Translations under genes and position numbers: made by a program
The notes under the pieces: generated by a model
Told to the model about the DNA's origin: nothing
What the model saw: the letters and a program-made list of their open reading frames with translations, nothing else
The model's database searches: none
Origin: a virus
DNA: 24,176 nucleotides
Virus record (IMG/VR): IMGVR_UViG_3300046459_000177
Location: 1 to 24,176 of that record
Strand: one strand, 5' to 3'
In this document: piece by piece, positions 1,110 to 21,810 of the stretch
How the letters are laid out: every line of letters begins with the position of its first letter
How positions within the stretch are numbered: the stretch's first letter is position 1

Positions 1110-1138
1110 GTAATGGGCCAGCACGGGGCGCGGTGTAC
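1110..1138 (-). promoter_or_regulatory. Class II promoter-like site 1
   Basis: Reads GTACACC, 11 bases, TGGCCCATTAC on the minus strand, pointing at the gene run starting at 1037. One of nine sites in this window with identical spacing. Confidence 0.7.
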
Positions 1139-1140
1139 GC

Positions 1141-1392
1141 CTAAGCGAGCACGCGGCGTGTGATCGTCTGCGTGGTACGCCAGCCCGTCGGGGTAGTCCG
1201 TTCAATCTTCGCCACGATCCGGGGCAGCTCGGGCTCGTTCGCGTCAAGGTGGGCCATTGCCTTCGGGTAGCTTGCGAACGCGGCGGCCTCGTCAGCGAAC
1301 GGGCCGAACGTAACCGACTGCTTCGCCCACGACTGGCGCTCGTAGTCGTACGCCTCCCACTCGGCGCGGATGTACCAAATTGGGTCGGTCAT
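1141..1392 (-). CDS. Hypothetical protein, 83 aa
   Basis: Starts at an ATG whose A is also the last base of the upstream stop codon (TAATG), a sign of translational coupling; GGAGAAC precedes it. The protein (MTDPIWYIRAEWEAYDYERQ at the start) is rich in aromatic and charged residues, with alternating beta strands and a helix around ADEAAAFASYPKAMAHL. No family or catalytic motif recognised. The stop lies three bases from class II site 1, which marks the end of this three-gene unit (2172 to 1141). Function unknown. Confidence 0.72.
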   Translation of the reverse strand: MTDPIWYIRAEWEAYDYERQSWAKQSVTFGPFADEAAAFASYPKAMAHLDANEPELPRIVAKIERTTPTGWRTTQTITRRVLA

Positions 1393-1589
1393 TAGTTCTC
1401 CTCGGGGTCGTACGCGGCAAGCGCGAGGCGCAGCTCGGTAACGTCGGCGGCGGTAAGCCAGACTTCGACCTCGGTGCCGTCGTTAACGAACACGCGCACG
1501 ACGGTCTCTTTGCCGTCTAGGTGCGACGGCGGGTAGAGCGTGAGTGTGATGCCGTCAGAGTCGGTGATAGTCGTAATCGGTGCGGGCAT
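1392..1589 (-). CDS. Hypothetical protein, 65 aa
   Basis: The frame extends upstream to 1700, but the ATG at 1589 (MPAPITTITDSDGITLTLYP) has AGAGAGG seven bases upstream and gives a compact protein; the extension is low-complexity Pro/Arg and overlaps the previous gene. The product looks like a small beta-rich fold (strands ITLTLYP, TVVRVFV and EVEVWLT) followed by a helix (AADVTELRLALAAY). No known family. It is coupled to the next gene by TAATG. Function unknown. Confidence 0.7.
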   Translation of the reverse strand: MPAPITTITDSDGITLTLYPPSHLDGKETVVRVFVNDGTEVEVWLTAADVTELRLALAAYDPEEN

Positions 1590-1674
1590 GTCTTGCCTCT
1601 CTACGAAGGGCACGGGGCCGCCCTGCGGCCTTTGCGGCGGCACAGAGCGACCCCGGAAGCGGGCGGCGGGTGGG

Positions 1675-2172
1675 CTAGTTGGCGCAGAGTGGGCAGTCAC
1701 ACGGGTAGCGCGCGGGCGTGGACTCGTGCTCGTCGACGGGCTCGGGCTCTAGGTGGTCCACGGCGTGCACCGAGTACGGGTAGGTGTCGGCGTCGGCGAC
1801 GCGCCTAACGCGGGCGACCGGGAAGCCTGCGGAGCTAGTGCCGAGGCTCACGACGCGCACGAGGTCGCCGCGCACGAGCGAGGCGAGGTACGGGTAGTTC
1901 TCGGTGACGGCGTAGACCTTGCCGACCTCGGGCAGCGCGGGCTCTACGGGCTCGGGCTCGGGGCGGGTGACCTCGTAGCCGAAGTGGGCGGCGAGGCGCA
2001 GCGTCAGGTCTAGGGCGTCGGCCTCGGTGATGTAGCCGTCGCCCGACACGAAGCCCTGCGTCTGGCACGACACGTAAAGGCCCTTGCCGCCAAGGCCGGG
2101 GGCGATGACGACCTCGTAAGCGAGCGATAACGACTCGCGCGTGATCTCGGTCGGGTATATAGCGGGAAGCAT
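1675..2172 (-). CDS. Hypothetical protein, 165 aa, C-terminal CDCPLC
   Basis: First gene of a three-gene unit under class II site 2. The ATG at 2172 has GGAGG five bases upstream. The N-terminal 80 residues suggest an alpha/beta domain. A Pro/Glu linker (about 90-100) is followed by a segment of strands (GKVYAVTENYPYLASL, GDLVRVVSLG) that reads like a small SH3-like or KOW-like barrel. The C-terminus ends YPCDCPLCAN, three cysteines that could ligate a metal together with a partner. No close family recognised. An SH3-like barrel is only my impression of the strand pattern. Confidence 0.72.
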   Translation of the reverse strand: MLPAIYPTEITRESLSLAYEVVIAPGLGGKGLYVSCQTQGFVSGDGYITEADALDLTLRLAAHFGYEVTRPEPEPVEPALPEVGKVYAVTENYPYLASLVRGDLVRVVSLGTSSAGFPVARVRRVADADTYPYSVHAVDHLEPEPVDEHESTPARYPCDCPLCAN

Positions 2173-2206
2173 GTGCCCCTCCAGGGCTAGGCGGTTGGTT
2201 GCCTAT

Positions 2207-2235
2207 GGAATGGGCCAGTAGGGGGCGAGGTGTTC
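2207..2235 (-). promoter_or_regulatory. Class II promoter-like site 2
   Basis: Reads GAACACC, 11 bases, TGGCCCATTCC on the minus strand. It overlaps the stop codon of the HNH gene and lies 35 bases before the ATG at 2172, which has its own Shine-Dalgarno sequence. Confidence 0.7.
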
Positions 2236-3001
2236 AGTCGTCGTCGAGATTTATTACGTGCCACTCGAACGCGGGCGACATCACGCGGGCGTAAATCTCG
2301 GGGTCGCGCTCGGCGATCCAGTCGAGCACGTGCCGGGCACCCTTAGACGTGTTGCACTGCTCGCACGCGGGCACGAGGTTGCACGCGTGGTCGGGGCCGC
2401 CGTGCTTGCTCGGCCACACGTGGTCGACGTGCTCGAAGGGGGCGGCGCAGTGCACGCACTGCCAGATATCGCGGTCTTCCCATGAAGGCAAAGCGCGGCG
2501 CAGTAGCCGGGCTTTGCCGCAGGCACGGCATACCGCCCGGAGCCCGCTCGCCTGGGTAGCGTCGGCACTAAACGCGGCGAACGGCAGCGAAAAGCGGCAG
2601 CGGCGGCAGCGTTGCAAGCCGTCGGGGCGGTGCTCGGCTCGCCATGCCTCGACCTGGTCGCGCGTGCGAGCGGCGTTGCGGCGCATGCGGTCGCGATCGG
2701 CTGCACGCTTGGCCTCGCGGACGGCTGGGTCCTTGCAGCGCTCGCGCTCGGCGGCGTTTAGGACCTTGCGGACGGTCGGGTCCTTGCAGCGCTCGCGCTT
2801 GGCGGCGTTCTTGGCGTTGCGATACGTCGCGTCGGCCTGGCGGGTGGCCTGGCGGGCGCGCTTGCACGATCGGCAAATCGTGGTGTACCCGTCGGGCCTG
2901 CAAGCGTCGCGCACCATCTCCGCGAGCCGAGCCTCGCCGCACGAGCGGCACTCGCACCCAGGCCGGACGCGCCATCGTGGCTCTAGGTCGGTAGAGGTCA
3001 T
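2234..3001 (-). CDS. HNH endonuclease with extra zinc-binding Cys pairs, 255 aa
   Basis: The C-terminal third carries a recognisable HNH nuclease: CVHC (about residue 182), then FEHVDHVWPSKHGG, NLVPACEQCNTSKG. This gives the histidine-aspartate motif, the central Asn and the zinc-binding CxxC pairs of the family. Upstream are more Cys pairs (CRSC near 18, CRSC near 43, CRRC near 134, CRAC near 158), which suggest zinc ribbons or DNA-binding fingers. Residues about 68-95 hold a duplicated RERCKDP unit. The ATG at 3001 has no Shine-Dalgarno sequence; class II site 3 ends six bases before it, so a leaderless mRNA is likely. Phage HNH proteins act in homing, nicking or packaging; its isolated position beside the integrase favours a free-standing homing-type nuclease. 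Confidence 0.85.
   Translation of the reverse strand: MTSTDLEPRWRVRPGCECRSCGEARLAEMVRDACRPDGYTTICRSCKRARQATRQADATYRNAKNAAKRERCKDPTVRKVLNAAERERCKDPAVREAKRAADRDRMRRNAARTRDQVEAWRAEHRPDGLQRCRRCRFSLPFAAFSADATQASGLRAVCRACGKARLLRRALPSWEDRDIWQCVHCAAPFEHVDHVWPSKHGGPDHACNLVPACEQCNTSKGARHVLDWIAERDPEIYARVMSPAFEWHVINLDDD
2729..2814. repeat. In-gene tandem repeat in the HNH gene
   Basis: Two nearly identical units of about 30 bases, spaced 48 bases apart, encode the duplicated RERCKDP helix in the HNH protein. Few silent differences separate them, which suggests a recent internal duplication. Confidence 0.6.
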
Positions 3002-3007
3002 GCCGTA

Positions 3008-3036
3008 GGAATGGGCCAGCGGGGGCGGCGGTGTAC
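3008..3036 (-). promoter_or_regulatory. Class II promoter-like site 3, leaderless configuration
   Basis: Reads GTACACC, 11 bases, TGGCCCATTCC on the minus strand. Six bases (TACGGC) separate the last C from the ATG of the HNH gene, so the ATG is placed at the expected +1. Confidence 0.75.
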
Positions 3037-3061
3037 GGCCAGTTGCCGGGCCGGTGGGCGG

Positions 3062-3176
3062 GTCAGTGCAGAAAAGACGAAAAAAACTGCACTTCTGCTT
3101 CCTTGTCTAAGAGAAGAAGAAGAACTCTCCTAAGCAAGTAATACAGAAGTGCAGTTTTTTAGCGGTTTTCTGCACT
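3062..3176. repeat. AT-rich 115-bp long-hairpin element, copy 1
   Basis: About 40 % GC by hand count, in a genome that is clearly GC-rich. Arms of about 32 bases (GTGCAGAAAA...CTGCACTTCTG and its complement) pair across a purine-rich centre that itself pairs imperfectly. Each outer arm also holds a local GTGCAG/CTGCAC hairpin. U-runs follow the inner stem on both strands, so it can act as a bidirectional terminator. It lies just after the integrase gene. Copy 2 at 20350-20464 differs at three adjacent positions only. Confidence 0.85.
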
Positions 3177-3206
3177 AGCCCAGGTCAGCAGGGGCTAGCC
3201 CCCGCG

Positions 3207-4649
3207 TCACTCGGCGTCGGGGTCGGTGTCTTGCTGCCAGTGAATGTCGAGCCGGGCAGGGTCGAAGCCACGCGGGCCACGCTTGCCGGGCTTAAGGACC
3301 AGTGCGAGGGTTGCCTCGGCGAGCAGTGCGCGTCGGCCGTCGGTGTCGCGGCCTTCCCACTCGTCGAGCATCGTGCGGCCGGTCGGACGCATCTCCACCT
3401 GCACGCCTTGTGGCTCGGCTGCGAGTGCGTCGCGGTCGGCCTGTAGCTGCGTGAGGCGCGCGAACGCCTCGGCGGTTGCCTTCGTGCCCAGCTCGGTCAA
3501 GGTTGCGGCAATGGCGTCATCTAGCGTCGCCAGGGCTTCGCCTCCGGTGACGATGGCGACTCGCTCGAATACCGGCATGTGCGCGGCACCCTTGAGAAAC
3601 TCGCCGGTCACGTACGCCTCGATAGGAAGCGCCGAGACGACCACGGGTTGTTTGCAGTTGCCCCCGTCTGCGTTGCGCTGGCAACGGTAGGCGATCTCGC
3701 CGTTAGTCCTGTGTGCGACCTGTAGCACGCCGTGGCAGGCGAAACACTCCAGGAGGCGGGACAGTAGGCGCGTCGGCTTGCGGCCGGGCTTCTTGCGGCC
3801 GTCGGGTTGCGGGTTGAGCAGTGCGCGCAGGGCGGTAACCGTGGGCATGTCGAGCACGGCCGGGAATGGGGTTAGGGCGTGCCCGCTCTCGTCGCGGATT
3901 ACCTTGCCGTCCAGCGTCACGCGGCCGAGGATGTGATCTCCGGTTATCGCTTGGCGCAGGGTCACGCGCGACCACTCCGGGGCGCGTCGTGGCGGCGGGC
4001 CTTGCCTGTTTAAACGGCGTACGACGCTCGTAAGGTTCTCGCCTGCGAGTAGGTCGTTAGCGGCCTGGCGTAGGGCGTCGGCCTCGTGCGGCTCGATAGC
4101 GAGGGTTTTGCCGGGGCCGTCCGGGGTAGGGGCGACGCGGTATCCGTACGGTGCCGGGCCTCCGGGCCAGCGGCCAGCCTTGCGAAGGCGGGCGTATTTA
4201 GCGATGGCGCGCTCTTTGATTCGCTCGCGCTCGTAACGGGCGCTCTCCGCACCGATTAGGAACATCATGCGGAAGGCGACGCCGTTAGCGGAGTCGAGCC
4301 CCTTTGTGTCCATGAGCCGGACGGGCTTACGGATCACCTTGCCGGTCTCGGGGTGCTTGCCTTCCATTACGTCGAGCAGTAGCGCGGCGACGTTGAGGCC
4401 CTCGCGCGTCATCCTATCGACGTGATGCGCTACCAATATGTCGGCGCGGCCGTTGCGGGCGTCGTCGAGCCAGCCAACAAACTGCGGCCGGTCGCGGATC
4501 GCGCCCGACAATCCGTCGTCGATGTGCTCGGCGACGATCTCGAAGCCCTCGCGCTCACACAGTGCGCGTAGGTCGGTTCTCATGCCCTCTAGCGACGTAT
4601 TCTCGTCGTTAGCGGCCTTGCTGAGCCTCACGTAGAGCGATGCTCGCAA
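3207..4649 (-). CDS. int: Large serine recombinase (phage integrase), 480 aa
   Basis: Site-specific integrase that would join phage attP to host attB. The N-terminus reads LRASLYVRLSKAANDENTS with the nucleophile serine in RLS at residue 10. The resolvase domain continues with DDGLSGAIRDRPQF and ADILVAHHVDRMTREG, where the Arg residues of the active site sit. The recombinase domain follows (GGPAPYGYRV near 165), then a zinc ribbon with CFAC near 300 and two later cysteines, and a short C-terminal tail. The length is close to that of R4-type integrases. The start is TTG at 4649, preceded by AGGAGG. No class I or II site precedes it, only a weak promoter-like region, so it may be expressed apart from the lytic units. 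Copy 1 of the 115-bp element follows its stop; attP is probably near one end of the gene but I could not define it. Confidence 0.95.
   Translation of the reverse strand: MRASLYVRLSKAANDENTSLEGMRTDLRALCEREGFEIVAEHIDDGLSGAIRDRPQFVGWLDDARNGRADILVAHHVDRMTREGLNVAALLLDVMEGKHPETGKVIRKPVRLMDTKGLDSANGVAFRMMFLIGAESARYERERIKERAIAKYARLRKAGRWPGGPAPYGYRVAPTPDGPGKTLAIEPHEADALRQAANDLLAGENLTSVVRRLNRQGPPPRRAPEWSRVTLRQAITGDHILGRVTLDGKVIRDESGHALTPFPAVLDMPTVTALRALLNPQPDGRKKPGRKPTRLLSRLLECFACHGVLQVAHRTNGEIAYRCQRNADGGNCKQPVVVSALPIEAYVTGEFLKGAAHMPVFERVAIVTGGEALATLDDAIAATLTELGTKATAEAFARLTQLQADRDALAAEPQGVQVEMRPTGRTMLDEWEGRDTDGRRALLAEATLALVLKPGKRGPRGFDPARLDIHWQQDTDPDAE
4008..4015. other. GTTTAAAC inside the integrase gene
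   Basis: Read as CGT TTA AAC (Arg-Leu-Asn) with a TTA codon. Confidence 0.8.
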
Positions 4650-7546: not shown

Positions 7547-8329
7547 TCACGCGACGTTCATAACCTCTTTGTTGCACGGGCAGATCGGGGCTCCGTGAGC
7601 CTCCAAGTGCACGCGCGACGTGCGCGCGATGTAACCGCAGTCGGGGCACTCGCACTTCACCATGCGGGTTGTCTGCTTCTTCGGGCCGTCCGCACCGTTG
7701 CCCGCCGAGATTTGGCCGTGCGGGTACGCGCCGAGAAGTGCGGCCATGTCGGCGAGCTTCGCGGTCATCTCGTCGCCCGCCTGCGTGGCAGTCAGCTTGC
7801 CCTCTAGACCGAGGCGGCGGGCCATCTTGGCGAAGTCGCCCTTGTGTCCGCTCTGGCAGTCGTCGACCGCGTGCACCAGCTCGTGCGCGAGGGTTTCGAG
7901 CACCTGCTTGTGGTTCATGAGCACGGGCGAGATGAAGACCTGCGCCACCTTGTCGGCCGTCGCCAGCGTCGGCCAGCACTGCCCGATCGTCTTGTTTTTG
8001 CGGCCACTGCCACCAGGCCAGCCGACCGAGACGCGCACGGCCGGGATCGTGCGGCCAATCTCGGCGAACATCGGGCGGAACTGCTCGACGGCGGCTACGA
8101 GCCACTCCTCGCGGGTCGCGTACGGCTCGGGGGCTTCGGTGTACTGCGGCCGGGCGGCGTCAATGGCAATCGCCTCGGCGTGGTCGCCCTCCACGGTGCG
8201 GCCATCCACGAGCCACTGGCCGGTCTGCTTCGCCTCTGCGAGGAGGATCTGCTCGCACGGTGGGCAGTCGTAGAGCATTCCGGGCTCGTGCGGGTAGTCA
8301 ACGTGGGCGGCGGTGTCGTAGTTCGGCAT
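7547..8329 (-). CDS. SprT-like zinc metallopeptidase, 260 aa
   Basis: The catalytic motif HELVH is at residues 149-153 (LETLAHELVHAVDD), followed by a histidine at 162 (GHKGDF), the usual third zinc ligand of SprT/WLM-type peptidases. Cys pairs at both ends (CPPC near 22; CECPDC at 226-231 and CPC at 250-252) suggest zinc ribbons. SprT and Spartan relatives cleave DNA-bound or crosslinked proteins; many actinophages carry such a gene of untested role. The frame opens upstream to 8407 but the ATG at 8329 has GAGGAGG seven bases before it. Class I site C lies at 8371-8399. It is followed by the DUF2637-like gene, probably on the same transcript. Confidence 0.85.
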   Translation of the reverse strand: MPNYDTAAHVDYPHEPGMLYDCPPCEQILLAEAKQTGQWLVDGRTVEGDHAEAIAIDAARPQYTEAPEPYATREEWLVAAVEQFRPMFAEIGRTIPAVRVSVGWPGGSGRKNKTIGQCWPTLATADKVAQVFISPVLMNHKQVLETLAHELVHAVDDCQSGHKGDFAKMARRLGLEGKLTATQAGDEMTAKLADMAALLGAYPHGQISAGNGADGPKKQTTRMVKCECPDCGYIARTSRVHLEAHGAPICPCNKEVMNVA

Positions 8330-8784: not shown

Positions 8785-9318
8785 TTACGCCAGTGCGCCG
8801 ACTAGAGCAGTCGCAAGCGCGGGCCGTAGACGGCGCGACCAGGCGGTAGACAGCCCGCCGACGGACATGCCGAGCGACCGGGCGACCTCGGCCTGCGGCC
8901 GGTCTTTCATGTAGTGCTCGGTCACGTAGGCGCGCTCCCAGGACTGGAGCCCTTCGAGCACTGCGGCCACGGCCTCGCGTAGGTCGATCTCGGCGGCGTG
9001 GTCGGCCACTTCGTCGCCCTCGTCGGCCGGGTCTAGCGACTCCGTGTTGGCGGCCGTTAGGGGCTCTTTGCGACCCTGCGTGCTCGGCTCACCAGTGAAG
9101 CGGCGGCCTCGGGTCACGTCGAGCACTGCGCGGCGGGCCACGACGGTTAGCAGCCCGTCAAGCGGGCGCGGGTCGTCGCCGTGCGCTTCGATCGCTTGCC
9201 ATACCGCGATACGCGCTTCTTGTGCGGCGTCGTCGCGCAGGCCGGGCCGGACCCGCTCGGCCGCCATAAGGCGGATAAGCGGGTCCATGCGGGCCAGATG
9301 CTCGTTAACGAGCGTCAC
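8785..9318 (-). CDS. Sigma-70 family factor 2 (short, regions 2 and 4), 177 aa
   Basis: Residues about 10-70 resemble sigma region 2: MDPLIRLMAAERVRPGLRDD, then AAQEARIAVWQAIEAHG (the core-binding helix) and VVARRAVLDVTRGRRF (-10 recognition helix). A linker of about 40 mostly acidic residues leads to region 4 at about 120-177: LQSWERAYVTEHYMKDRPQA, VARSLGMSVGGLSTAWSRRL, an HTH. The size and two-domain build are like ECF sigma factors. The GTG at 9318 overlaps the stop of the 50-residue gene (GTGA), so the two are coupled. The unit is preceded by class II site 4. It could redirect host RNA polymerase; a DNA-binding regulator without sigma activity is the alternative. Confidence 0.8.
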   Translation of the reverse strand: MTLVNEHLARMDPLIRLMAAERVRPGLRDDAAQEARIAVWQAIEAHGDDPRPLDGLLTVVARRAVLDVTRGRRFTGEPSTQGRKEPLTAANTESLDPADEGDEVADHAAEIDLREAVAAVLEGLQSWERAYVTEHYMKDRPQAEVARSLGMSVGGLSTAWSRRLRPALATALVGALA

Positions 9319-9467
9319 CGCTTCGTGCCGGGGCGAGCCGGAAGGCCGTAGACGGTCTCGCGGAAGCTAGCGGCGTTCAAGGCGTCGACCTCGTCGCGCT
9401 CCTCGAAGGTCAGGAACTCGTAAGCGTCGCCCTCGGGCGCGTCAGCGTCGTATCCGAACTCGTTCAT
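9315..9467 (-). CDS. Small acidic protein, 50 aa, coupled to sigma factor 2
   Basis: The ATG at 9467 follows AAGGAGCCCCAA, a good Shine-Dalgarno sequence. The product, MNEFGYDADAPEGDAYEFLT at the start and LPARPGTKR at the end, has an acidic N-terminus and a helix around FEERDEVDALNAASF. Its stop overlaps the GTG of the sigma-like gene. A small acidic protein encoded immediately before and coupled to a sigma factor is a possible anti-sigma or partner, but this is inference from position only. Class II site 4 lies 31 bases upstream. Confidence 0.7.
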   Translation of the reverse strand: MNEFGYDADAPEGDAYEFLTFEERDEVDALNAASFRETVYGLPARPGTKR

Positions 9468-9497: not shown

Positions 9498-9526
9498 GTA
9501 ATGGGCCAGCGGTGCACGCGCTGTAC
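9498..9526 (-). promoter_or_regulatory. Class II promoter-like site 4
   Basis: Reads GTACAGC, 11 bases, TGGCCCATTAC on the minus strand, upstream of the 50-residue gene and sigma factor 2. A class I-like palindrome (9529-9556) abuts it. Confidence 0.7.
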
Positions 9527-9528
9527 AC

Positions 9529-9556
9529 CGCTAGCCCGTACGACTTCTTACGCACC
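9529..9556 (-). promoter_or_regulatory. Class I-like site H, overlapping the stop of sigma factor 1
   Basis: Minus strand TGCGTAAG-AAGT-CGTACGGG followed by TAGCGG at a 16-base spacing. Its core (CGTAAGAAGTCGTACG) is the same as in site C but in opposite orientation. Imperfect; possibly only an operator. Confidence 0.4.
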
Positions 9557-10309
9557 GAGCGCAGTACGCATCTTGCCGAGTGCGCGCTGCCGCGTGCGCT
9601 GCGTCTGTACGCGACCCATGCCGAGGCGGTTGCCTACCTCTTCGTCGTGCAAGGGCTCGGGGTCGGTGAAGCCGTAGCCCATGCGGCACACGTCGCGCTC
9701 CACTGGCGCTACGGCCTTAAAGGCGAGATCGCACATGATGCGGTCGTTAACGTCGGTGATCTCTTGCTCGCTCGTGAGGTTGCCGAGCGTGTCGTAGAGC
9801 GCGTCGCCCTTCGCCTCTAGCGCCCGCTCAAGCGAGGTAACCGAGCTAAGCGAGGTAAGGACGGCGAGCAGGGTATCCGGGCGCATGTCGTATTGCGGGG
9901 CGATGCGCATTGCCTCGTCTACGTCGCCCTCGGCGTGGGAGAGGATGCCGAGCGCCCGCTTGAGCGTGCGAGACGGGATCGTAAAGCCGCCCGTCGTGTC
10001 GGCCGTCGTGTCGGCCATGCACTCGGCCAGCGTCTCGCGCATGGTCGAGCTGAGCCGGTCAGAGCTTGCCGGGTCGAAGCGCTTAATGGCGGTCATGAGT
10101 GCGATCACGGCGGCCTGCTGGGCGTCGTCGCGGTCGAGCACGCCCCGGAACTTGGCGACGGCCTTACGGAGCACGGGCACGTACGCGGCGAACAGACGGA
10201 GCGTGGCGGCCTCGTCGCCAACCTTCGCGGCGGCAATGAGCGCAGTCTCTTCGGCGGCGTCGGTGACGGGTGCGGGGTCGGCGGTCCAAATCGTTGCAAA
10301 AGCAGACAT
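9548..10309 (-). CDS. Sigma-70 family factor 1, 253 aa
   Basis: Residues about 18-85 resemble region 2 (EETALIAAAKVGDEAATLRL, FAAYVPVLRKAVAKFRGVLD, then DDAQQAAVIALMTAIKRFDP); the RFDP motif is typical of sigma region 2. A middle region of about 110 residues could replace region 3. The C-terminal part (VERDVCRMGYGFTDPEPLHD, EEVGNRLGMGRVQTQRTRQR, ALGKMRTAL) is a region 4 HTH. The ATG at 10309 has GGAGG six bases upstream, better than the ATG at 10327. Class I site D and a terminator-like hairpin lie in the leader. Likely role: redirect host RNA polymerase to phage promoters, with the class II sites as candidate targets. I cannot tell from sequence which of the two sigma-like proteins reads them. 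Confidence 0.8.
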   Translation of the reverse strand: MSAFATIWTADPAPVTDAAEETALIAAAKVGDEAATLRLFAAYVPVLRKAVAKFRGVLDRDDAQQAAVIALMTAIKRFDPASSDRLSSTMRETLAECMADTTADTTGGFTIPSRTLKRALGILSHAEGDVDEAMRIAPQYDMRPDTLLAVLTSLSSVTSLERALEAKGDALYDTLGNLTSEQEITDVNDRIMCDLAFKAVAPVERDVCRMGYGFTDPEPLHDEEVGNRLGMGRVQTQRTRQRALGKMRTALGA

Positions 10310-10389: not shown

Positions 10390-10419
10390 ACCGTAGCTCG
10401 CGTAAAACTTCTTACGCAA
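10390..10419 (-). promoter_or_regulatory. Class I promoter/operator D
   Basis: TTGCGT, 18 bases, TACGGT on the minus strand, with palindrome TTGCGTAAGAAGTTTTACGCGA. About 80 bases before the start of sigma factor 1. Confidence 0.65.
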
Positions 10420-11985: not shown

Positions 11986-11990
11986 TTGTC

Positions 11991-12356
11991 TTACTCGCTC
12001 TCGCCGTGCCACTCGTTCAGGGAAACTTCCAGCCCGCGCCGTACACCGCGAACTGCGATAACTGCGCTGCGTAGCAGGTTGCGTGACCTTAACAACTGCT
12101 GTGAGAGATGCAAGCGCCGATCGTCGAGCACCGTGTCTAATACCGGATTCGACCTGCGGTTCTTCTCGCGCTCGGCGGTGTCTTCGCGTGGGCGGGCGAC
12201 CGGAGCCGGCAAAAGGTGCACATCAATAACCGCAGGTAGCACGGCCTCTAAGGCGTCTACCTCCGCGCGGAATAGTTCGAGCAGGTGCGCCATGCGTGGC
12301 GCTTCGGGATCGTCGGCGATGTTGACTACCTGTGACATATCTCTAACATCCCTCAC
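11991..12356 (-). CDS. Hypothetical helical protein, 121 aa
   Basis: The GTG at 12356 overlaps the DNA polymerase stop (GTGA), which favours this start; an ATG at 12338 with GAGGG eleven bases upstream is the alternative and would give 115 residues. Largely helical (MAHLLELFRAEVDALEAVLP) with a basic C-terminal half (DRRLHLSQQLLRSRNLLRSA, VRGVRRGLEV). No motif recognised. Position directly after the polymerase suggests a replication accessory, but that is context only. Confidence 0.7.
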   Translation of the reverse strand: MRDVRDMSQVVNIADDPEAPRMAHLLELFRAEVDALEAVLPAVIDVHLLPAPVARPREDTAEREKNRRSNPVLDTVLDDRRLHLSQQLLRSRNLLRSAVIAVRGVRRGLEVSLNEWHGESE

Positions 12357-14259: not shown

Positions 14260-14688
14260 TTAGAGCTGCTGGCGGAAGAACTCCAGCACGGCCACGGCGA
14301 GATCCTCGTACGTCGCGGGCTCGCCATCGTTCGGCGTGTCGGCATCGGCCAGCACGTCGGCCAAGCGGGCGATCATGTCGGCCGTCGGGCTCTCGTCGGG
14401 GGCGTCCGTGCCCGAGCTGGAGCAGCACCCGCGCGAGCCGGTCGGGACGCTCGCGGGCGTGCGGATTACCTCGCCCGAAGCGGTGCGGATCTCGTCCACC
14501 CCGCCCATGAAGTCGGCGTGCTCCCACATGCCGGGGAGAGCGTCTCGCGACGCCTTGGCCCGGTCGATGGATGCCCTTAGCGCGGCCATCAGGTCGGGCG
14601 CGGCTGGCCGCTTCGGTACCTCCGGCAACGGGTCGCCGCAGAGGCCGAGCAACGGGCAGCCCCCGCAAGAGTCGGTGCAGTCGTTCAT
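14260..14688 (-). CDS. Hypothetical protein with N-terminal Cys cluster, 142 aa
   Basis: The ATG at 14688 follows GAGGAGCCCCCAA. The N-terminus MNDCTDSCGGCPLLGLCGD carries four cysteines spaced C-x3-C-x2-C-x5-C, compatible with an iron-sulfur cluster or zinc. The middle (PDLMAALRASIDRAKASRDA) is helical, a CC pair sits near residue 88, and the C-terminus is an acidic helix (YEDLAVAVLEFFRQQL). No family recognised. It lies between primase-helicase and polymerase, with class II site 5 embedded in the end of the upstream gene. A metal-dependent replication accessory is possible; this is inference from the cluster and context. Confidence 0.75.
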   Translation of the reverse strand: MNDCTDSCGGCPLLGLCGDPLPEVPKRPAAPDLMAALRASIDRAKASRDALPGMWEHADFMGGVDEIRTASGEVIRTPASVPTGSRGCCSSSGTDAPDESPTADMIARLADVLADADTPNDGEPATYEDLAVAVLEFFRQQL

Positions 14689-14699: not shown

Positions 14700-17219
14700 T
14701 CAGAGGTCGTAGATAGACGGGCCGGTAATCGGGGTCGTACGTGAGGAATGGGCCAGCGGGTTATCCGCTGTACGGTCTTCGTCGCTCGAATCTGGCGCGG
14801 TGATATCCGGGGCGTGGTCGGTCGCACGTGCGCGCCGAATGCCTCGCATCTCCATGCCGGTGTTCGCCCGCTTCTGGTACGCGCCGCGCTCCTCCAGGGC
14901 TGCGAGCAACGTCTTGCGGGTCCAGCGCGAACGCTCGGGCATCGCTTCGTCGTCGCACCACTGGCGATATGCGTCCCATACGAGCTTCGTTGCCACGGAG
15001 CCCTTTTCGTCGTGAACGAAGACGCCGGGCAGGAAGCCCGACAGCGCGTCGGAGGTCTGCCGGTACTCCTTCGTGCCGTCGACGATCGCGGGCGGGTCCT
15101 GCAAGCCGTCGCGGTACCACTCGATAGCGCCACGGACGGCCCACGCGAGGATGCCCTGCGCCTCGGCGAGCAGCTTTGCGCCTAGCTTGTGATCGCGCTC
15201 ATGCGGCTTAAACGTCCGCTCGAACGGGATCAGCTTTACGCGACGCCAGAGCCCCTCGTCTTGGCCTTTGAAGTTCGGCTTGTAGTTCGTGGCGAGCATG
15301 AGTAGGAACGTCGGCCGGAACTCGAAGAACTCCTTACGCATGAAGCGCGCCGAGATCAGGTCACGGCCGGTCACGCGCTTAAGCACGGCCTCGGCCATCG
15401 GGCGGCCTTGCTCGCCCTCGGCAGCCATGACCAGACGCGCGCCCTTGAGCGCGGCGAGGTCGTTAGGGATGCCGCCCCCGCCCTTCGAGTCTTCGAAGGT
15501 GCTAAACGGCGTCGTAACCGTGTGCTCGCGGAAGACCTCCGTAAGCGTGTCGGTTAGCACGCTCTTGCCGTTCGCACCCGTGCCCCACATGACCGCGAAG
15601 CACTGCTCGGCGGTCTCGCCGGTCACGCCGTAGCCGACGATGCGGGCCATGTACTGAGGCATTCCCACGTGGCGCTCGTGCGGGAAGACCTCGCGCAGGA
15701 ATTGTTCCCAGCGGTTGCACTTCGCCTCGGGGTCGTAGTCCAGCTCGACGCGGCGGGTAAGCAGGTACGCCGGGTCGTGCGGAAGCAGCGCGCCCGAGCG
15801 CATGTCGACCACACCGTTTAAACACGCGAGTAGGTGTGGCTGCTTGTCGAAGTCGTTAACGTCGGCGGCCACACCCTTAAGCGCCTGCGCCTCGCGCACC
15901 ATTGCGTCGATACCGCGCGACGAGTTTGCGTGCCTGGCGAACGTGCGAAGCAGCCCGACACGCTTGCGAAGCTCCTTGGCGCTGTCGTCCGGGTCGCCCG
16001 CCTCGTCGATGGCCTTAAGCGCCTCAGTAAGCGAGTCGACCTCGGACCAGATAGACCGGGCGACCTCCTGGGCCTCGGTGCGTACGGCGTCAAGCTTGTC
16101 GACACGCCAGACGCCCTCGTGGAGCAGCAAAAAGCCGACCTCGGGCGAGAAGCGCATACCCGAGCCGTTGGCCTCCAGGTGCGCCTTAAGGCGGTGCGCG
16201 GCGGCAATGTCGGTCACGTCGTTCTCGGTCCAGACTTCGAGCCGAGTGCGCAGCCCTCCGGGGTCCTGCGCGGCGTTGACTGCGCGCACGAAGTCGCTAG
16301 CGAACGTCGCCGGGTTGCCCTCGCGCCACGAGGTCACGTCGTCGCCGTCGGACGGCGGCCGAACCTTACGCACGGACACGCCGAGCGCGGCCAGCTTCGC
16401 GGCGAGCGTCTTTGCGAAGCCGTCGCCCGCGTTGTCGGCGTCGCCCACGATCACGACCGGGCGGCCGTCGGCAATGGCTGCGATCTCTTCGGCGTAGCTC
16501 TCGGCGAGCAGGCCAGCGCCCCGCACGGCGATAACGTCGTAACCCACGGCGCACGCGGTAAGGCCGTCGCCTGGGCCTTCGGTGACGATGACCTCTGCCC
16601 AGCCAGCCGCGCCAGGGAAGTAGGCCAGCTTCGACCACGACGCGCCCTCGGGCGACTTCGCGCCCAGCCAGCGAACCTTCGCGTTAGGGTCCAGCGCGCG
16701 GGCCTGGTAGCCCCTCGGGACGCCGTCGCGGTCACGGAAAGGAACGACGAGACGCGGGCCGCCCGGCAGGCCGGACACTAGGCGGCGGTCTTCGTAGACG
16801 GCCGGGCCTGCGTAGCCCAGGCCGAGGCGCTGGGCGTCGGCGTAGTCAATGCCGAAGCGCTCTAGCGCATACTCCAGCGTCGGGATAGCGGCCGAGTGTT
16901 GAATGCCAGCGGCGTAGCCGTCCAGCTCGACGGCCAGCGCGGCGACGGCGGCCGGGTCAGCGGGCACGTTGCGCGACGTAGCGCGGGCCTTGACGGTGCC
17001 GGGCGTGATCGCGGCGAACTCAGGCCACGTCATGCCCAGCGCCTTAACCACGTCGGGAGTCGTGCAGCCGGTGCGGCACTTGAGCAAAAGCGCGCCGGTC
17101 TCGCCGACGGCCACGCGCAGCGAGGGGTGCGAGTCGGCGTGCGACGGGCAGGGCACTAGCCAGCCGTCGGCCTCGTCGACTACCTCGGCGAAGCGCGCGA
17201 GAAATTGTTCTAGGGTCAC
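14700..17219 (-). CDS. Primase-helicase, CHC2-type zinc finger + Toprim + D5/SF3 helicase, 839 aa
   Basis: Residues about 20-65 form a zinc finger (CPSHADSHPSL ... CRTGC) as in bacterial-type primases. Toprim follows at about 210-300 (VIVTEGPGDGLTACAVGYDV, VVIVGDADNAGDG). After a helical linker, the D5-family superfamily 3 helicase has Walker A GTGANGKS, a central strand LVMAAEGEQG and LMLATNYKPNFKGQDEGLWR with the Arg finger region RRVKLIPFER. A C-terminal winged-helix-like region (VWDAYRQWCDDE) ends the protein. The enzyme would synthesise primers and unwind DNA at the fork. The GTG at 17219 has AAAGAGG seven to eight bases upstream. Class II site 6 is 36 bases upstream. The last codons contain class II site 5. 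Confidence 0.93.
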   Translation of the reverse strand: MTLEQFLARFAEVVDEADGWLVPCPSHADSHPSLRVAVGETGALLLKCRTGCTTPDVVKALGMTWPEFAAITPGTVKARATSRNVPADPAAVAALAVELDGYAAGIQHSAAIPTLEYALERFGIDYADAQRLGLGYAGPAVYEDRRLVSGLPGGPRLVVPFRDRDGVPRGYQARALDPNAKVRWLGAKSPEGASWSKLAYFPGAAGWAEVIVTEGPGDGLTACAVGYDVIAVRGAGLLAESYAEEIAAIADGRPVVIVGDADNAGDGFAKTLAAKLAALGVSVRKVRPPSDGDDVTSWREGNPATFASDFVRAVNAAQDPGGLRTRLEVWTENDVTDIAAAHRLKAHLEANGSGMRFSPEVGFLLLHEGVWRVDKLDAVRTEAQEVARSIWSEVDSLTEALKAIDEAGDPDDSAKELRKRVGLLRTFARHANSSRGIDAMVREAQALKGVAADVNDFDKQPHLLACLNGVVDMRSGALLPHDPAYLLTRRVELDYDPEAKCNRWEQFLREVFPHERHVGMPQYMARIVGYGVTGETAEQCFAVMWGTGANGKSVLTDTLTEVFREHTVTTPFSTFEDSKGGGGIPNDLAALKGARLVMAAEGEQGRPMAEAVLKRVTGRDLISARFMRKEFFEFRPTFLLMLATNYKPNFKGQDEGLWRRVKLIPFERTFKPHERDHKLGAKLLAEAQGILAWAVRGAIEWYRDGLQDPPAIVDGTKEYRQTSDALSGFLPGVFVHDEKGSVATKLVWDAYRQWCDDEAMPERSRWTRKTLLAALEERGAYQKRANTGMEMRGIRRARATDHAPDITAPDSSDEDRTADNPLAHSSRTTPITGPSIYDL
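14745..14773 (-). promoter_or_regulatory. Class II promoter-like site 5, inside the end of the primase gene
   Basis: Reads GTACAGC, 11 bases, TGGCCCATTCC on the minus strand. It lies within the last 25 codons of the primase-helicase and points at gene 14688, 57 bases away. The motif is kept although it is coding sequence. Confidence 0.7.
15816..15823. other. GTTTAAAC inside the primase-helicase gene
   Basis: Read as TGT TTA AAC (Cys-Leu-Asn), using the TTA leucine codon that is rare in high-GC actinobacterial genes. Confidence 0.8.
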
Positions 17220-17254: not shown

Positions 17255-17283
17255 GGAATGGGCCAGAGAGCGGCGCGGTGTAC
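17255..17283 (-). promoter_or_regulatory. Class II promoter-like site 6
   Basis: Reads GTACACC, 11 bases, TGGCCCATTCC on the minus strand, directly after the terminator at 17287-17324 and 36 bases before the primase start. Confidence 0.75.
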
Positions 17284-18274: not shown

Positions 18275-18298
18275 AGTTGGGTAAGGCTTCTTACGGGT
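18270..18298 (-). promoter_or_regulatory. Class I-like operator G
   Basis: GTAAG-N4-CTTAC palindrome between the RDF-like stop and the hairpin, with class I spacing, but ACCCGT and TAGCCC are poor promoter hexamers and the -10 overlaps the hairpin arm. More likely a binding site than a promoter. Confidence 0.4.
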
Positions 18299-18306
18299 TC
18301 AGCGGT

Positions 18307-19002
18307 TTAGAACGGGGGCTCGTCCAGCTCGACGGGGGCCGCCTTGATGATCTCAAGGCTTGGCTTCGTGTAGCTCACGGCCTGCCCTGCCTTCGTGGTG
18401 AACGAGACGGGCTCAAGGCCGAGCCAGGCATACGCCGGGCCGTCGATCGCGGCGAGCTTCGCCTCCGGGGCGATGATGTCCTTAACGAAGGACCACGAGC
18501 CCGTCGTAAACTTGAACTTGCCCAGGTCGGGGGCGTCGGCGAGCTTGAAATAGATGGTGATGCTCGGCTCGCAGCCGGTGCCGTCCTTCGCGGCGGCCTT
18601 GCGCTCGGCGAACGTTGCCGGGCACTGGCAGGGCTTGCCCTCCGCGCCTTCTCCGCTCTGCTCCACGCCGTCGCAGCGCCGGATCGCCTTATTGTTGCGC
18701 CCCCAGAGGTTCATACCCTGGCGCAGCGCGTTCGGGCCTTCAAGCCAGACCTTGACCCTGGTAGCCGTGGTGAACACTTCGAGCGTGTCTTCGCCGGTAG
18801 CGTCCCACTCGACAGCCTCGCCGCCGAACATCTCGGCCACGGCGTCGGCTACGTCCGGGTCGCCGGACGTGACACGCCACTCGGACAGCGACGCGGGGCG
18901 CTTGTTAATCATGTGCCCAGAGCGGAAGCGGCCGACGAGGTCTTCACTAAAACGCGGCTTCGGGGCGGCCTCGGGGTCGGTGTCAAAAATGCGCAAGCCC
19001 AC
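18307..19002 (-). CDS. Recombination directionality factor-like protein (phiC31 gp3 type), 231 aa
   Basis: The protein MGLRIFDTDPEAAPKPRFSE, with RSGHMINKRPASLSEWRVTS, LWGRNNKAIRRCDGVEQS, CQCPATFAERKAAAKDGTGC and SWSFVKDIIAPEAKLAAIDG, follows the pattern I know for the gp3-like family of actinophages. In phiC31, gp3 binds the serine integrase and switches it to excision. The four cysteines near 115-148 could hold a zinc. The GTG at 19002 follows AAGGAGCCCCGCAC. Class II site 7 lies 42 bases upstream, placing the gene with lytic functions, which suits an excision factor. Many family members are untested; a ssDNA-binding or replication role is an alternative. Confidence 0.65.
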   Translation of the reverse strand: MGLRIFDTDPEAAPKPRFSEDLVGRFRSGHMINKRPASLSEWRVTSGDPDVADAVAEMFGGEAVEWDATGEDTLEVFTTATRVKVWLEGPNALRQGMNLWGRNNKAIRRCDGVEQSGEGAEGKPCQCPATFAERKAAAKDGTGCEPSITIYFKLADAPDLGKFKFTTGSWSFVKDIIAPEAKLAAIDGPAYAWLGLEPVSFTTKAGQAVSYTKPSLEIIKAAPVELDEPPF

Positions 19003-19043
19003 GTGCGGGGCTCCTTTCAGGTTTGGGTGATCGGTTCGAAGTA

Positions 19044-19072
19044 GTAATGGGCCAGCGGGTGCCCAGGTGTTC
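19044..19072 (-). promoter_or_regulatory. Class II promoter-like site 7
   Basis: Reads GAACACC, 11 bases, TGGCCCATTAC on the minus strand. It shares bases with the stop codon of the LAGLIDADG gene and precedes the RDF-like gene. Confidence 0.7.
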
Positions 19073-19439
19073 AGCGATCTAGCGGCAAACCTGGCGGGCG
19101 CGAGAGCACGACCGGCGTCTTAGTCGTCTTCGCGGCGTGACCTAGCACGGTCGCAATGTGCGCCGAGCGGCGAGCGCCCATGTGCGGCAAGATTGCGCGC
19201 ATGACGGCCTCGGCCTTTTCGCCGGTCGCCTCGGCGTGAAACATCGCCTTGTGCGGGGCCTGTTTAAACGCCATGCGCACCGATACGCCCATGAGCGTCG
19301 CTGCGCGGCCGACCACGTCACGATCGACCATGCCGACCCGCACGCGGGGGTAGCGCCCCCGGTGCAGGTCGAAACACGCTTCACCCTCGGCCAGCCCAGC
19401 CAGCCAGATAACGTCGTCGCGGGATGCCTGCTCGATCAT
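19071..19439 (-). CDS. LAGLIDADG-type mini-protein (putative homing endonuclease), 122 aa
   Basis: Near the N-terminus VIWLAGLAEGEACFDLHRG matches the LAGLIDADG helix, with the acidic residue (E) at the expected end. Strands PRVRVGMVDRDVV, helix GRAATLMGV and MFHAEATGEKAEAVMRAILP fit one monomer of the family, so it would work as a homodimer. At 122 residues it is short but complete for a single-motif member. The ATG overlaps the exonuclease stop (ATGA), which is unusual for a mobile endonuclease and suggests it is now part of the operon. It may cut DNA in a replication-linked role or be a captured homing gene. Confidence 0.7.
   Translation of the reverse strand: MIEQASRDDVIWLAGLAEGEACFDLHRGRYPRVRVGMVDRDVVGRAATLMGVSVRMAFKQAPHKAMFHAEATGEKAEAVMRAILPHMGARRSAHIATVLGHAAKTTKTPVVLSRPPGLPLDR
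19262..19269. other. GTTTAAAC inside the LAGLIDADG gene
   Basis: Read in frame as part of GCG TTT AAA CAG (Ala-Phe-Lys-Gln). Confidence 0.8.
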
Positions 19440-20254
19440 TTGGCGGCCACCGCCTTACGCGGCGCTGCGGTGCGCTTCGTCGGCTTCGCGCCAGCGTTGA
19501 GCGGGTTGCCCAGCATCGACGACTTAAGCTCGCGCTCGTAGCGGAAGACCTCGCGCAGGTGCAAGAAGACCTTAAAGACGGACTCGTCGAAGCGGCACGG
19601 CACGAGCTTCCAGCCCTCGGGGCGAACGTGGAGCACGCCCGAGCCGTCGGCCTGCGGTAGCGGTGTCCGGGTGCCGTCGGCGGAAACGATGTAGTCGGCG
19701 TGACCGTACGCGGCGAGCTGCACCGCGACCTCTTCGTGCACGCCCGAGCGGGTCGTCTTCCAGTCGAGCCAGACCAGCTCGCCCCGGATTTTCGCCAGCG
19801 CGTCGAAGCTGCCCGCGTAGTCGTGGGCCTCGCTCCAGACGGTCTCTTCCAGATGCACGAACTCGGGTTGGAACTCATCCAAGAACTCTTCGAAGTGCGC
19901 CACGTACGGCTTAAAGTCCGGGTGCACGCGGGAGATCGTCTCGCCCGAGGCCATGCGCTCGAAGATGTCGTGGACTTCGGTGCCGACGTTGGCGGCGTTG
20001 TTCACGTCGCGGTCGGGGGCACGCTTGAGCATGTCTACGGCGGCCTCGCGGTTGCCCTTAATCATCAGGTCGACGACCGAGCCGACGTTGTCTACGGCGA
20101 ACTCGGATACGGCCTTGGCTGCCCAGTACTTGAGGAAGCCCTTAGGGAGCATGTTCAGGATCGACGTAACGCCGGGGGCCTTCTCGCCGGTCTCGGGGTT
20201 GACGTAGAAGCGGGCGTCGCCGCGCTTAATGGTGTTGACCTTAGGTGTTGTCAC
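19436..20254 (-). CDS. RecB/Cas4-like PD-(D/E)XK exonuclease, 272 aa
   Basis: Motifs in order: GTEVHDIFERM (His of motif I, about residue 93), EAHDYAGSFDALAKI (Asp, about 150), LVWLDWKTTRSG (D-x-K, about 162) and VAVQLAAYGHADYI (QxxxY). This is the pattern of phage RecB-like or Cas4-type exonucleases used in recombination and replication. The N-terminus (KAPGVTSILNMLPKGFLKYW) matches the family's usual opening. The GTG at 20254 has AGAGAGG eight bases upstream. Class II site 8 is 36 bases before it. The C-terminal tail is Lys/Ala-rich. No recombinase is seen in the window. Confidence 0.82.
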   Translation of the reverse strand: MTTPKVNTIKRGDARFYVNPETGEKAPGVTSILNMLPKGFLKYWAAKAVSEFAVDNVGSVVDLMIKGNREAAVDMLKRAPDRDVNNAANVGTEVHDIFERMASGETISRVHPDFKPYVAHFEEFLDEFQPEFVHLEETVWSEAHDYAGSFDALAKIRGELVWLDWKTTRSGVHEEVAVQLAAYGHADYIVSADGTRTPLPQADGSGVLHVRPEGWKLVPCRFDESVFKVFLHLREVFRYERELKSSMLGNPLNAGAKPTKRTAAPRKAVAAK

Positions 20255-20289
20255 CGCTGGCCTCTCTGTCGTGTTTCAGGGACAGAGCA

Positions 20290-20318
20290 GTAATGGGCCA
20301 GACGGGGGGCGGGTGTAC
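20290..20318 (-). promoter_or_regulatory. Class II promoter-like site 8
   Basis: Reads GTACACC, 11 bases, TGGCCCATTAC on the minus strand, upstream of the exonuclease gene. Confidence 0.75.
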
Positions 20319-20349
20319 GCCCGTGGGCTGGGAGCTTTCAGGCGGCGGG

Positions 20350-20467
20350 GTCAGTGCAGAAAAGACGAAAAAAACTGCACTTCTGCTTCCTTGTCTAAGA
20401 GAAGAAGAAGAACTCTCCTAAGCAAGTAATACAGAAGTGCAGTTTTTTTAAGGTTTTCTGCACTGAC
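20350..20467. repeat. AT-rich 115-bp long-hairpin element, copy 2
   Basis: Matches 3062-3176 at all but three adjacent positions. Here the ends are a perfect 14-base inverted repeat (GTCAGTGCAGAAAA). It lies just after the stop of gene 20477, in the place where other units have a terminator. Confidence 0.85.
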
Positions 20468-20476
20468 TCGGCGGTC

Positions 20477-21085
20477 TTACCCCGCGTGCCTGCCCCGCGT
20501 CAGGGTACGTACCCGCGTCATGATCTGCTCTAGCGTCGCCTGGGCGAGCGCGCGCTCCTCGTCGTCAAGGTGCGAGATAGCGGCAGGCTTGACCCGCTCT
20601 AGGTGGATGAGTGCCAGCGCCAAGAGCCGAAGCGGCGACGTTTCAGCCGGGGCGGTCTCTTCACGCACGAGCCGAAGCTGCGCCGAGCGGGCGTTACGCG
20701 ACACGCGGGCCTTCTCCTGCGATGAGTGCTCGACGAGCCCTAGTGCTTCTACCTCGCCGTCGGTCAGCCGCTCGCGCACGAGCGACGACACGTGGTAGCG
20801 CACGGCGGCCTGCACGTTGCTTTTCTCCTCGGCCGTCATCCCTGCCTTTGCGTACATGTCGCGCATGTGCTCGCGGTAGGCGTGTGTGCGGCCTGCCCAG
20901 TCGGGGTTACCTGCCTCGTCTAGGATCGCCTCGCGCATGTCCACGGAGAGCGCAGCAATGCGCCGTAGCAACTGCGTACGTTGCTCGCGGTCGTCGCCCA
21001 CGTTGCGCAGGGCGCGCAGTGTGCGCACGAAGGTACGGTCTACCTCCTCGGTCGGGCTGGGCATTTCCTGCTCCTCGACAGTCAT
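20477..21085 (-). CDS. Hypothetical helical protein, 202 aa
   Basis: The frame opens upstream to 21184, but the ATG at 21085 (MTVEEQEMPSPTEEVDRTFV) is preferred: it lies seven bases after the -10 of class I site E, and the extension would cross a terminator. The protein is almost all helix, with many Arg and Glu residues (VRTLRALRNVGDDREQRTQL, VQAAVRYHVSSLVRERLTDG, LVREETAPAETSPLRLLALA). No HTH is convincing. Being alone under an operator-type promoter, it may be a regulator, but I do not recognise it. Leaderless translation is expected. Confidence 0.7.
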   Translation of the reverse strand: MTVEEQEMPSPTEEVDRTFVRTLRALRNVGDDREQRTQLLRRIAALSVDMREAILDEAGNPDWAGRTHAYREHMRDMYAKAGMTAEEKSNVQAAVRYHVSSLVRERLTDGEVEALGLVEHSSQEKARVSRNARSAQLRLVREETAPAETSPLRLLALALIHLERVKPAAISHLDDEERALAQATLEQIMTRVRTLTRGRHAG

Positions 21086-21092
21086 AGCGGCC

Positions 21093-21121
21093 AGCGTAGG
21101 CGCGAAAGACGCCTTACGAAA
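21093..21121 (-). promoter_or_regulatory. Class I promoter/operator E
   Basis: TTTCGT, 17 bases, TACGCT on the minus strand, then seven bases to the ATG at 21085. Palindrome TTCGTAAG-GCGT-CTTTCGCG is degenerate. Confidence 0.65.
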
Positions 21122-21150
21122 GATCTTATTAGTGCCTATGTTCCCAGGTC

Positions 21151-21158
21151 GTTTAAAC
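21151..21158. other. GTTTAAAC palindrome
   Basis: Between the terminator after the dNMP kinase and promoter E. Confidence 0.85.
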
Positions 21159-21161
21159 AGC

Positions 21162-21212
21162 AAAAGCCCCCGCGTCGGGCGCAACCTTATTGGCTGCTCT
21201 CACGCGGGGGCT
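21162..21212 (-). terminator. Intrinsic terminator after the dNMP kinase
   Basis: AGCCCCCGCGT pairs perfectly with ACGCGGGGGCT across a 28-base loop; TTTTGCTG follows on the minus strand. Confidence 0.75.
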
Positions 21213-21236
21213 ACTGGGCGGTACGTCCGTTGTGCG

Positions 21237-21776
21237 CTAGCTCACTACGGAGTGGTAATAGTCGGCGAGGTCGTGGAGCTGCTCCACCGTGCTGTCATTC
21301 GTCACCGACCACGCAAAGCGGCCGTCTAGCGCGGTCTCGCTTATGTGATTGTCGGTCGAGACGAGGCCGGGCCGCCGAATCCGCACGAGGTTGCCCATTG
21401 CCTCTACCCAGTCGGCCTCGTTCGGAAAGCGCACGTCTGTAATCACGACCGGGCCGAGGGTCGCGCGCGCGCGGTCGGCAACCACGCGGAGCCAGAATCC
21501 GGGGTCTAGCTCGCGGATGCCCACGCCGAAGCGCTGGAGCGTGCGCCGGACCTCGGGCAGCTCCTTAGCGTGCTCCCAGCCTCCATCACGCGCGAGGATG
21601 TGCGAGAGCCGGATCTCGTGAAAGCCAACGACGATCGGATCTAGCGCGAGCGCCGCCTCCTTAAGGGCGTCAGCGAACGCGAGGCGGGTATAGCCGTGAG
21701 CCTCCACGAGCCGGGCGGCGAAGGTGTCTTTACCGGAGCGCTTGCGGCCGGTGAGGCCGATAAGTGGGTATGCCAT
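21237..21776 (-). CDS. Deoxynucleoside monophosphate kinase, 179 aa
   Basis: P-loop at the N-terminus, IGLTGRKRSGKDTFAARLVE (residues about 6-25), as in T4 gp1-like dNMP kinases. YTRLAFADALKEAALAL follows, with the LAFAD-LK motif for the nucleotide acceptor. Then come LQRFGVGIRELDPGFWLRVV and PVVITDVRFPNEADW, the DVRF-NEA motif typical of the family. It phosphorylates dNMPs to supply replication. The ATG at 21776 has no Shine-Dalgarno sequence; class II site 9 ends five bases upstream, so the mRNA should be leaderless. It is a single-gene unit closed by the terminator at 21162-21212. Confidence 0.9.
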   Translation of the reverse strand: MAYPLIGLTGRKRSGKDTFAARLVEAHGYTRLAFADALKEAALALDPIVVGFHEIRLSHILARDGGWEHAKELPEVRRTLQRFGVGIRELDPGFWLRVVADRARATLGPVVITDVRFPNEADWVEAMGNLVRIRRPGLVSTDNHISETALDGRFAWSVTNDSTVEQLHDLADYYHSVVS

Positions 21777-21781
21777 GCGAA

Positions 21782-21810
21782 GTAATGGGCCAGCGCCCGT
21801 AATGCTGTAC
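21782..21810 (-). promoter_or_regulatory. Class II promoter-like site 9, leaderless configuration
   Basis: Reads GTACAGC, 11 bases, TGGCCCATTAC on the minus strand, then TTCGC and the ATG of the dNMP kinase. Confidence 0.75.

Follow-up and report, generated by a model that had tools for sequence, protein, structure and literature searches.

What is the function of a 29-bp two-part motif that occurs nine times in IMG/VR virus record IMGVR_UViG_3300046459_000177, and which protein would recognise it? The record is a 24-kb stretch of virus DNA (24,176 nucleotides, hereafter the window) with essentially all of its genes on the minus strand. A previous reading of the letters alone (the sequence-only reading) had proposed that the motif represents a candidate phage-specific promoter class equivalent to the early promoters of Streptomyces phage phiC31. 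Comparison with relatives supports this proposal, through sites at orthologous genes, a one-strand rule and a likeness to the promoters of phiC31 and phiBT1. We consider it quite probable that the nine sites are phage-specific promoters that are read by a phage sigma factor encoded at 9548-10309 (minus strand), itself switched on first from a host-type promoter. Our confidence in the promoter function of the sites is high, and that in their recognition by this sigma factor is moderate.

The pattern GWACASC-N11-TGGCCCATTMC matches the window nine times with zero mismatches, always on the minus strand and at the places given by the sequence-only reading. A tolerance of three mismatches adds no further site in the window, and dinucleotide shuffles yield 0.11 matches to the full two-part pattern on average, with a maximum of 2. 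Counted by itself, the half TGGCCCATTMC likewise has nine occurrences in the record, each of them on the minus strand (reversed reading, 0), and a repeat finder that was not supplied with the motif returned the identical nine places as a 37-nt family, D1. A cruder null based on the commonest 10-mer of the window does not discriminate, as 3 of 100 Markov sequences also reach nine copies of some word, whereas the shuffles do. The right half of the motif is preceded by a further constant base (C before TGG in 9/9 sites), the motif is followed by T in 8/9, and its left half is better written (T)GWACA. Two sites, at 2207 and 19044, have the form TGAACA, the TGA of which doubles as the stop codon of the upstream gene. 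The gap between the halves is constant in the window and differs by one base in relatives. In the earlier division of the motif, two hexamers were separated by a 17-base spacer; the -35 element is better placed one base upstream, with a spacer of 17-18.

In the direction of transcription, with all coordinates on the minus strand, site 1 (21782-21810) lies before a deoxynucleoside monophosphate kinase gene (21237-21776), site 2 (20290-20318) before a Cas4-type exonuclease gene (19436-20254), site 3 (19044-19072) before the gene for a recombination directionality factor (RDF; 18307-19002), and site 4 (17255-17283) before a DNA primase/helicase gene (about 14700-17219). Site 5 (14745-14773) is within the 3′ end of the primase gene, before an open reading frame (ORF; 14260-14688) and the DNA polymerase gene. 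Site 6 (9498-9526) is found just downstream of the sigma gene and before a small ORF (about 9315-9467) and a second, small sigma-like gene (8785-9318, minus strand). Site 7 (3008-3036) precedes an HNH/endonuclease VII-like gene (2234-3001), site 8 (2207-2235) an ORF at 1675-2172, and site 9 (1110-1138) an ORF at 798-1037. Each of the nine sites does face the gene that follows it, but that strand also carries nearly all of the window's genes. Site 5 is the one copy inside a gene, at a position that is conserved in relatives.

Searches of viral_contigs with the exact motif gave three single matches only, one of which (L009) is a near-identical fragment of the same phage; the exact sequence is therefore a poor means of finding relatives, whereas the architecture does find them. 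The primase was the productive bait for this purpose, and the sigma protein alone gave zero matches in viral_contigs. In a first k-mer scan upstream of the primase, codon usage swamped the signal in several loci. A site of the same architecture is visible upstream of the primase in most of the 30-odd relatives, and annotated relatives carry sites before the kinase, exonuclease, RDF and primase genes, within the primase 3′ end, and ahead of some of the later genes. Homologous sites occur in phages and prophages of Arthrobacter, Microbacterium and Curtobacterium. The general architecture is TGARCA-N11/12-nnGGCnnnYTnY, of which each phage repeats a variant of its own: TGAGCA...CTGGCGCACTNCT in KeAlii, ...CTGGCCCTCTCCT in DrManhattan, TGAGTA...GGGGCACCCTACA in Elezi, ...CTGGCCGACTCCT in Halsey, ...TGGCCGTCTCCC in Honk, GGGCA...GGCGGTCTCCT in phiMiGM15 and GWACA...CTGGCCCATTMCT in the window. 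The class extends beyond the window phage, and its spacing varies by one base among relatives. Random orientation had been named as a refuting result; strict patterns matched 63 times forward and 0 times in reverse in eight complete or nearly complete genomes (KeAlii, 7; DrManhattan, 7; Elezi, 7; Halsey, 6; Honk, 7; phiMiGM15, 7; phiC31, 10; phiBT1, 12). With the pattern used, L050, L057 and L060 showed zero repeated sites.

The 4.8-Mb genome of Pseudarthrobacter siccitolerans carries two such prophages. The variant of the first occurs seven times in the genome, all on one strand and all within 35 kb around that prophage, whereas for the variant of the second there are five occurrences, of which four fall in that prophage and the fifth on another contig. 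Two promoter codes appear to coexist in one cell in this case, and the distribution indicates that the sites are not host promoters. In the literature searched, whose coverage did not extend to the phiC31 early-promoter papers, the motifs are without description in these phages.

The sites also allow a transcription start to be predicted. When 150 sites from 26 phages were aligned on the first base of CTGGC, core position 19 proved to be a purine in 139 of them (93%), and position 18 a pyrimidine in 88% (purine, 12%); purines make up 29% at position 20 and 9-49% at the remaining positions between 13 and 30. The purine is at position 19 by majority in 24 of the 26 phages, while phiMiGM15 and L023 look shifted by one base. 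ATG codons at the head of ORFs with 50 codons or more concentrate at positions 18 (n = 5) and 19 (n = 11), a cluster that in the window includes those of the kinase (21776) and HNH (3001) genes. A pyrimidine-purine step at a fixed place, together with leaderless start codons there, is the signature of a transcription start site, and the purine at position 19 is the predicted +1. The -10 hexamer falls at core positions 7-12 as CATTAC or CATTCC, with the -35 half 17-18 bases before it; the sequence-only reading had placed this hexamer correctly, as the conserved purine is the seventh base after it and the leaderless ATGs coincide with that base. The predicted +1 is the A of the ATG at site 1 (21776) and at site 7 (3001), and falls at 20283, 19037, 17248, 14738 and 2200 for sites 2, 3, 4, 5 and 8, respectively, and near 1103-1104 for site 9. 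In many relatives, transcripts of the exonuclease gene would carry a short hairpin at their 5′ end, on the predicted +1 or immediately downstream of it. In the window this is the 5′ untranslated stem CTCTGTC...GACAGAG at 20254-20290, and its counterparts are at 19475 in L045, 19832 in L047 and 20101 in L043, with a sequence that differs and a place that is the same in each phage.

The candidate recogniser of the nine sites, encoded at 9548-10309, is a member of the sigma-70 family with regions 2 to 4 in order, including the helix-turn-helix of region 4.2. The protein aligns with 24 relatives from other loci, and a profile built from it and these relatives matches SigA and other sigma factors, best with E = 2.2e-17 for SigA, collinear across regions 2, 3 and 4 (positions 18-262). 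The top Protein Data Bank matches of its AlphaFold2 model (pLDDT 86, pTM 0.54, domains loosely placed) are sigma factors. Relatives encode a full sigma-70-type factor downstream of the DNA polymerase, and Pfam detects sigma regions 2 and 4 in their proteins. Of the two sigma-like genes of the window, only that at 9548-10309 occurs across the family. The second sigma-like protein has a single relative among the loci compared, in a Micromonospora prophage (L059, 14761-15267; 59% identity), and no match among phage records; its single relative makes it a less likely general recogniser.

If sigma factor and sites have drifted together in each lineage, each phage would have acquired its own promoter code. 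Motif-consensus distances were compared with protein distances in 24 phages by a Mantel-type test, which is lenient with related sequences. Motif distance is related to sigma distance with a Spearman coefficient of 0.25 (permutation p = 0.03), compared with -0.01 for the primase and about 0 for the polymerase and RDF; given the primase, the partial correlation of sigma and motif is 0.33 (p = 0.01). The sigma factor has the highest correlation of eight genes, followed by the kinase (0.19). These modest values are suggestive of motif divergence that tracks the sigma factor best. The residue that aligns with Glu585 of sigma-70 is Val, Ile or Leu in phages with a TGAACA-type -35 element (the window, L012, L013, L015 and L059), Pro or Gln in TGAGCA phages with the exception of L024, Ser in those with TGGGCA, and Ala in the TGAGTA phage. 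For the split between Ser/TGGGCA and Pro/TGAGCA within the Microbacterium clade, one change or more is required beyond that behind the TGAACA group. The sites of L022 are mixed.

How the sigma gene itself may be expressed is suggested by the sequence upstream of it. A host-type promoter, TTGCGT-N18-TACGGT, is located at 10390-10419 (minus strand), about 110 bases upstream of the gene, and its spacer contains the palindrome-like CGTAAG...CTTACG. Promoters of the type TTGCGT...TAnnnT lie within 300 bases of the sigma gene in 18 of 33 phages, two being near-copies of other phages, against an expectation of 0.025 per 300 bases. Among these 33 phages no site of the phage's own class stands directly before the sigma gene except in phiC31 and phiBT1; phiMiGM15 has one 173 bases upstream. 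A host-type promoter of the sigma gene in about half of the relatives suggests a cascade, the simplest order of which would be that host polymerase makes the sigma factor, and the sigma factor then opens the nine sites. In the proposed mechanism, host RNA polymerase carrying this sigma factor would bind the -35 element (T)G(A/T)ACA and the -10 element CATT(A/C)C at a distance of 17-18 bases, with CTGGC just upstream of the -10 as a likewise conserved part of the promoter. RNA would start some seven bases downstream of the -10 or, in the case of the leaderless kinase and HNH genes, directly at the ATG, and the sigma factor would activate genes for replication, excision and nucleotide metabolism. 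In the window, host-type promoters also precede the SprT-like gene (8399) and two ORFs (6453 and 5629), adjoining copies of the palindrome GTTTAAAC. Those at 10419, 8399, 6453, 5629 and 9537 share the form TTGCGTAAG-NNN-CTTACG-TAnnnT, in which the spacer encloses a palindrome; in two of the five an ATG follows shortly after the -10, and that at 9537 stands in tandem with site 6.

The early promoters of phiC31 were described in the 1990s as active only during lytic growth; their activator is not known to have been identified. The phiC31 sequence GGTTGCCGACTCCCTT and the phiBT1 sequence GTCACCGACTCCCTT stand before the same genes as the sites of the relatives, on one strand, and their -10-side bases resemble Halsey CTGGCCGACTCC. 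The -10-side sequence of phiC31 is GCCGACTCC, of which GGCCCATTCC in the window is a variant, and Halsey, L015, L017 and L040 have GGCCGACTCC. The location rule of phiC31 also holds in the window, where sites precede the kinase, exonuclease, RDF and primase genes and the polymerase has its site within the 3′ end of the primase gene. Both phages have a sigma-like gene, gene 12, in the same place as the window sigma gene. Its product in phiC31, gp12, matches the DrManhattan sigma factor in BLASTP (E about 5e-6) and also, over regions 2-3, when profiles are compared (probability 75, E = 2.6e-5), and Pfam finds region 2 in it. In contrast to the window, where the upstream half is GWACA and the -10 is CATT(A/C)C, the phiC31 and phiBT1 sites have no recognisable TGARCA half, and the window class is therefore regarded as a variant that works alike and not as the same subclass. 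Another difference concerns the sigma gene, which has a host-type promoter in the window and an early-class promoter in phiC31. In phiC31 (L044, 29908) and phiBT1 (L046, 30522), unlike the relatives, gene 12 lies behind an early-class site, an arrangement that would make gp12 self-activating.

Several of these observations weigh against recognition of the sites by the sigma factor at 9548-10309. The pTM of its model is low, and the window contains a second sigma-like gene. The phiC31 and phiBT1 sites show no TGARCA half, and gp12 would not be the sole starter in these phages because its gene sits behind its own class of site. The covariation test is lenient, and the partial correlation of sigma and motif given the kinase is not significant (0.15, p = 0.13). 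The association of TGAACA with one type of residue could reflect a single event, since the TGAACA group is one clade. Phage-specific promoters might thus be read by another protein, such as the second sigma-like factor, an activator or a modified host sigma factor. The position of the second sigma-like gene behind site 6, that of the gp12 gene behind the same class of site (so that another starter is possible there) and the correlation of only 0.25 would fit such a reader, which we judge to be unlikely. The second factor is present only in L059 among the loci compared and in no phage record, whereas the promoter class is family-wide; the first sigma factor is present wherever the class is well defined and the post-polymerase region is covered, and it tracks the motif best of the eight genes.

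Readings that dispense with a sigma factor fare worse. The phage is probably temperate, as it encodes a serine integrase, and the stoperators of mycobacteriophage L5 resemble the sites in that they are short and asymmetric, recur in small gaps between genes and follow the direction of transcription. Binding of a repressor or roadblock protein is nonetheless very improbable: a repressor site needs neither a pyrimidine-purine step at a fixed distance nor alignment with leaderless ATGs, the 17-18 two-part spacing is that of sigma factors, and a better operator candidate is at hand in the 8-base palindrome GTTTAAAC. The latter has nine copies in the window (4008, 5631, 6456, 8363, 14245, 15816, 19262, 21151 and 23723) where 0.15 are expected; relatives carry GTTTACAC at similar places, before the DNA polymerase and beside host-type promoters, and phiC31 carries CTACTCACGTGAGTAG. 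These palindromes are candidate operators for a repressor, separate from the promoter class. A phage RNA polymerase of the T7-like, single-subunit kind would also have promoters that are conserved within a phage and divergent between phages, but no such polymerase is annotated in the genomes examined and the spacing of the sites varies by one base, as for sigma factors, so that this source is scarcely credible; a PF00940 search gave zero matches, a result that is weak alone because the control set also matched nowhere. Equally remote is an element that acts in translation or in the mRNA, comparable to the start-associated sequences of cluster K mycobacteriophages. Start codons do lie downstream of most sites, but at widely varying distances, the motif would be outside the mRNA wherever the ATG is the predicted +1, and one conserved site is inside a coding sequence.

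Promoters read by a phage sigma factor have parallels elsewhere. In SPO1 and T4, a phage sigma factor redirects host RNA polymerase to phage-only middle or late promoters. The principle proposed here is alike, but the sequences are unrelated, and the present class has a G+C-rich -10 region and a separate variant for each lineage within a conserved architecture. Motifs that recur in one direction in small gaps between genes have been reported for Microbacterium phage clusters EC, EI and EG, of which EC and EI also have phages with a sigma factor gene; these motifs differ from those of the window in sequence, and either measure 18-30 bp and have no assigned function or are inverted repeats (PMC7302621). 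On balance, our comparison tips towards a broader picture, in which an actinophage lineage with an inherited sigma factor has diversified its promoter code into many mutually exclusive variants of constant architecture, with two prophages in one cell on separate codes. Such a lineage would constitute a natural library of orthogonal sigma-promoter pairs, and would name gp12 as the activator of the phiC31 early promoters. The phiC31 early-promoter type is already known; the breadth of the class, its specificity for each phage, the predicted start sites and the candidate sigma factor appear to be new. The comparison nominates a gene for phiC31 early-promoter activation, together with start sites, and allows lytic control to be mapped in a uniform way across a large group of phages of Arthrobacter, Microbacterium, Curtobacterium, Micromonospora and Streptomyces, where the regulator mostly bears no annotation beyond 'DNA binding protein'. 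Pairs of sigma factor and promoter with differences in a few residues and bases would help in studies of how promoters are recognised, and would be of use for gene expression in G+C-rich actinomycetes.

Along the direction of transcription, the window encodes the kinase, an unnamed ORF, the exonuclease, a homing-type endonuclease, the RDF, small ORFs, the primase, the DNA polymerase (12353 to about 14200), the two sigma-like proteins, an SprT-like protein (7547-8329), the serine integrase (3207-4649) and the HNH protein. It is the early region of a phage whose relatives include those of Arthrobacter cluster AZ (Azeevirinae), phages of Microbacterium and Curtobacterium and, at a greater remove, phiC31. 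The closest sigma factors are encoded by the Micromonospora prophages L059 and L050 and by the viral records L012 and L015, and the host is likely to be Micromonospora-like. Between the polymerase and the sigma factor, an ORF of 497 amino acids (10519-12012) has a long proline/aspartate-rich repeat tail (PAPPATDPAP...) and is without a Pfam or PHROG match, and the window has zero matches in Rfam. Terminator-like hairpins are located directly upstream of several sites. Among them is a 124-bp element in two copies that are 95% identical, at 20341-20464 directly upstream of site 2 and at 3053-3176 directly upstream of site 7 (both minus strand). The element folds as one very long hairpin that ends in a T run (-60.9 kcal/mol, z -8.6), and may be a terminator or a mobile element; a hairpin of different sequence occurs in a similar place in L032.

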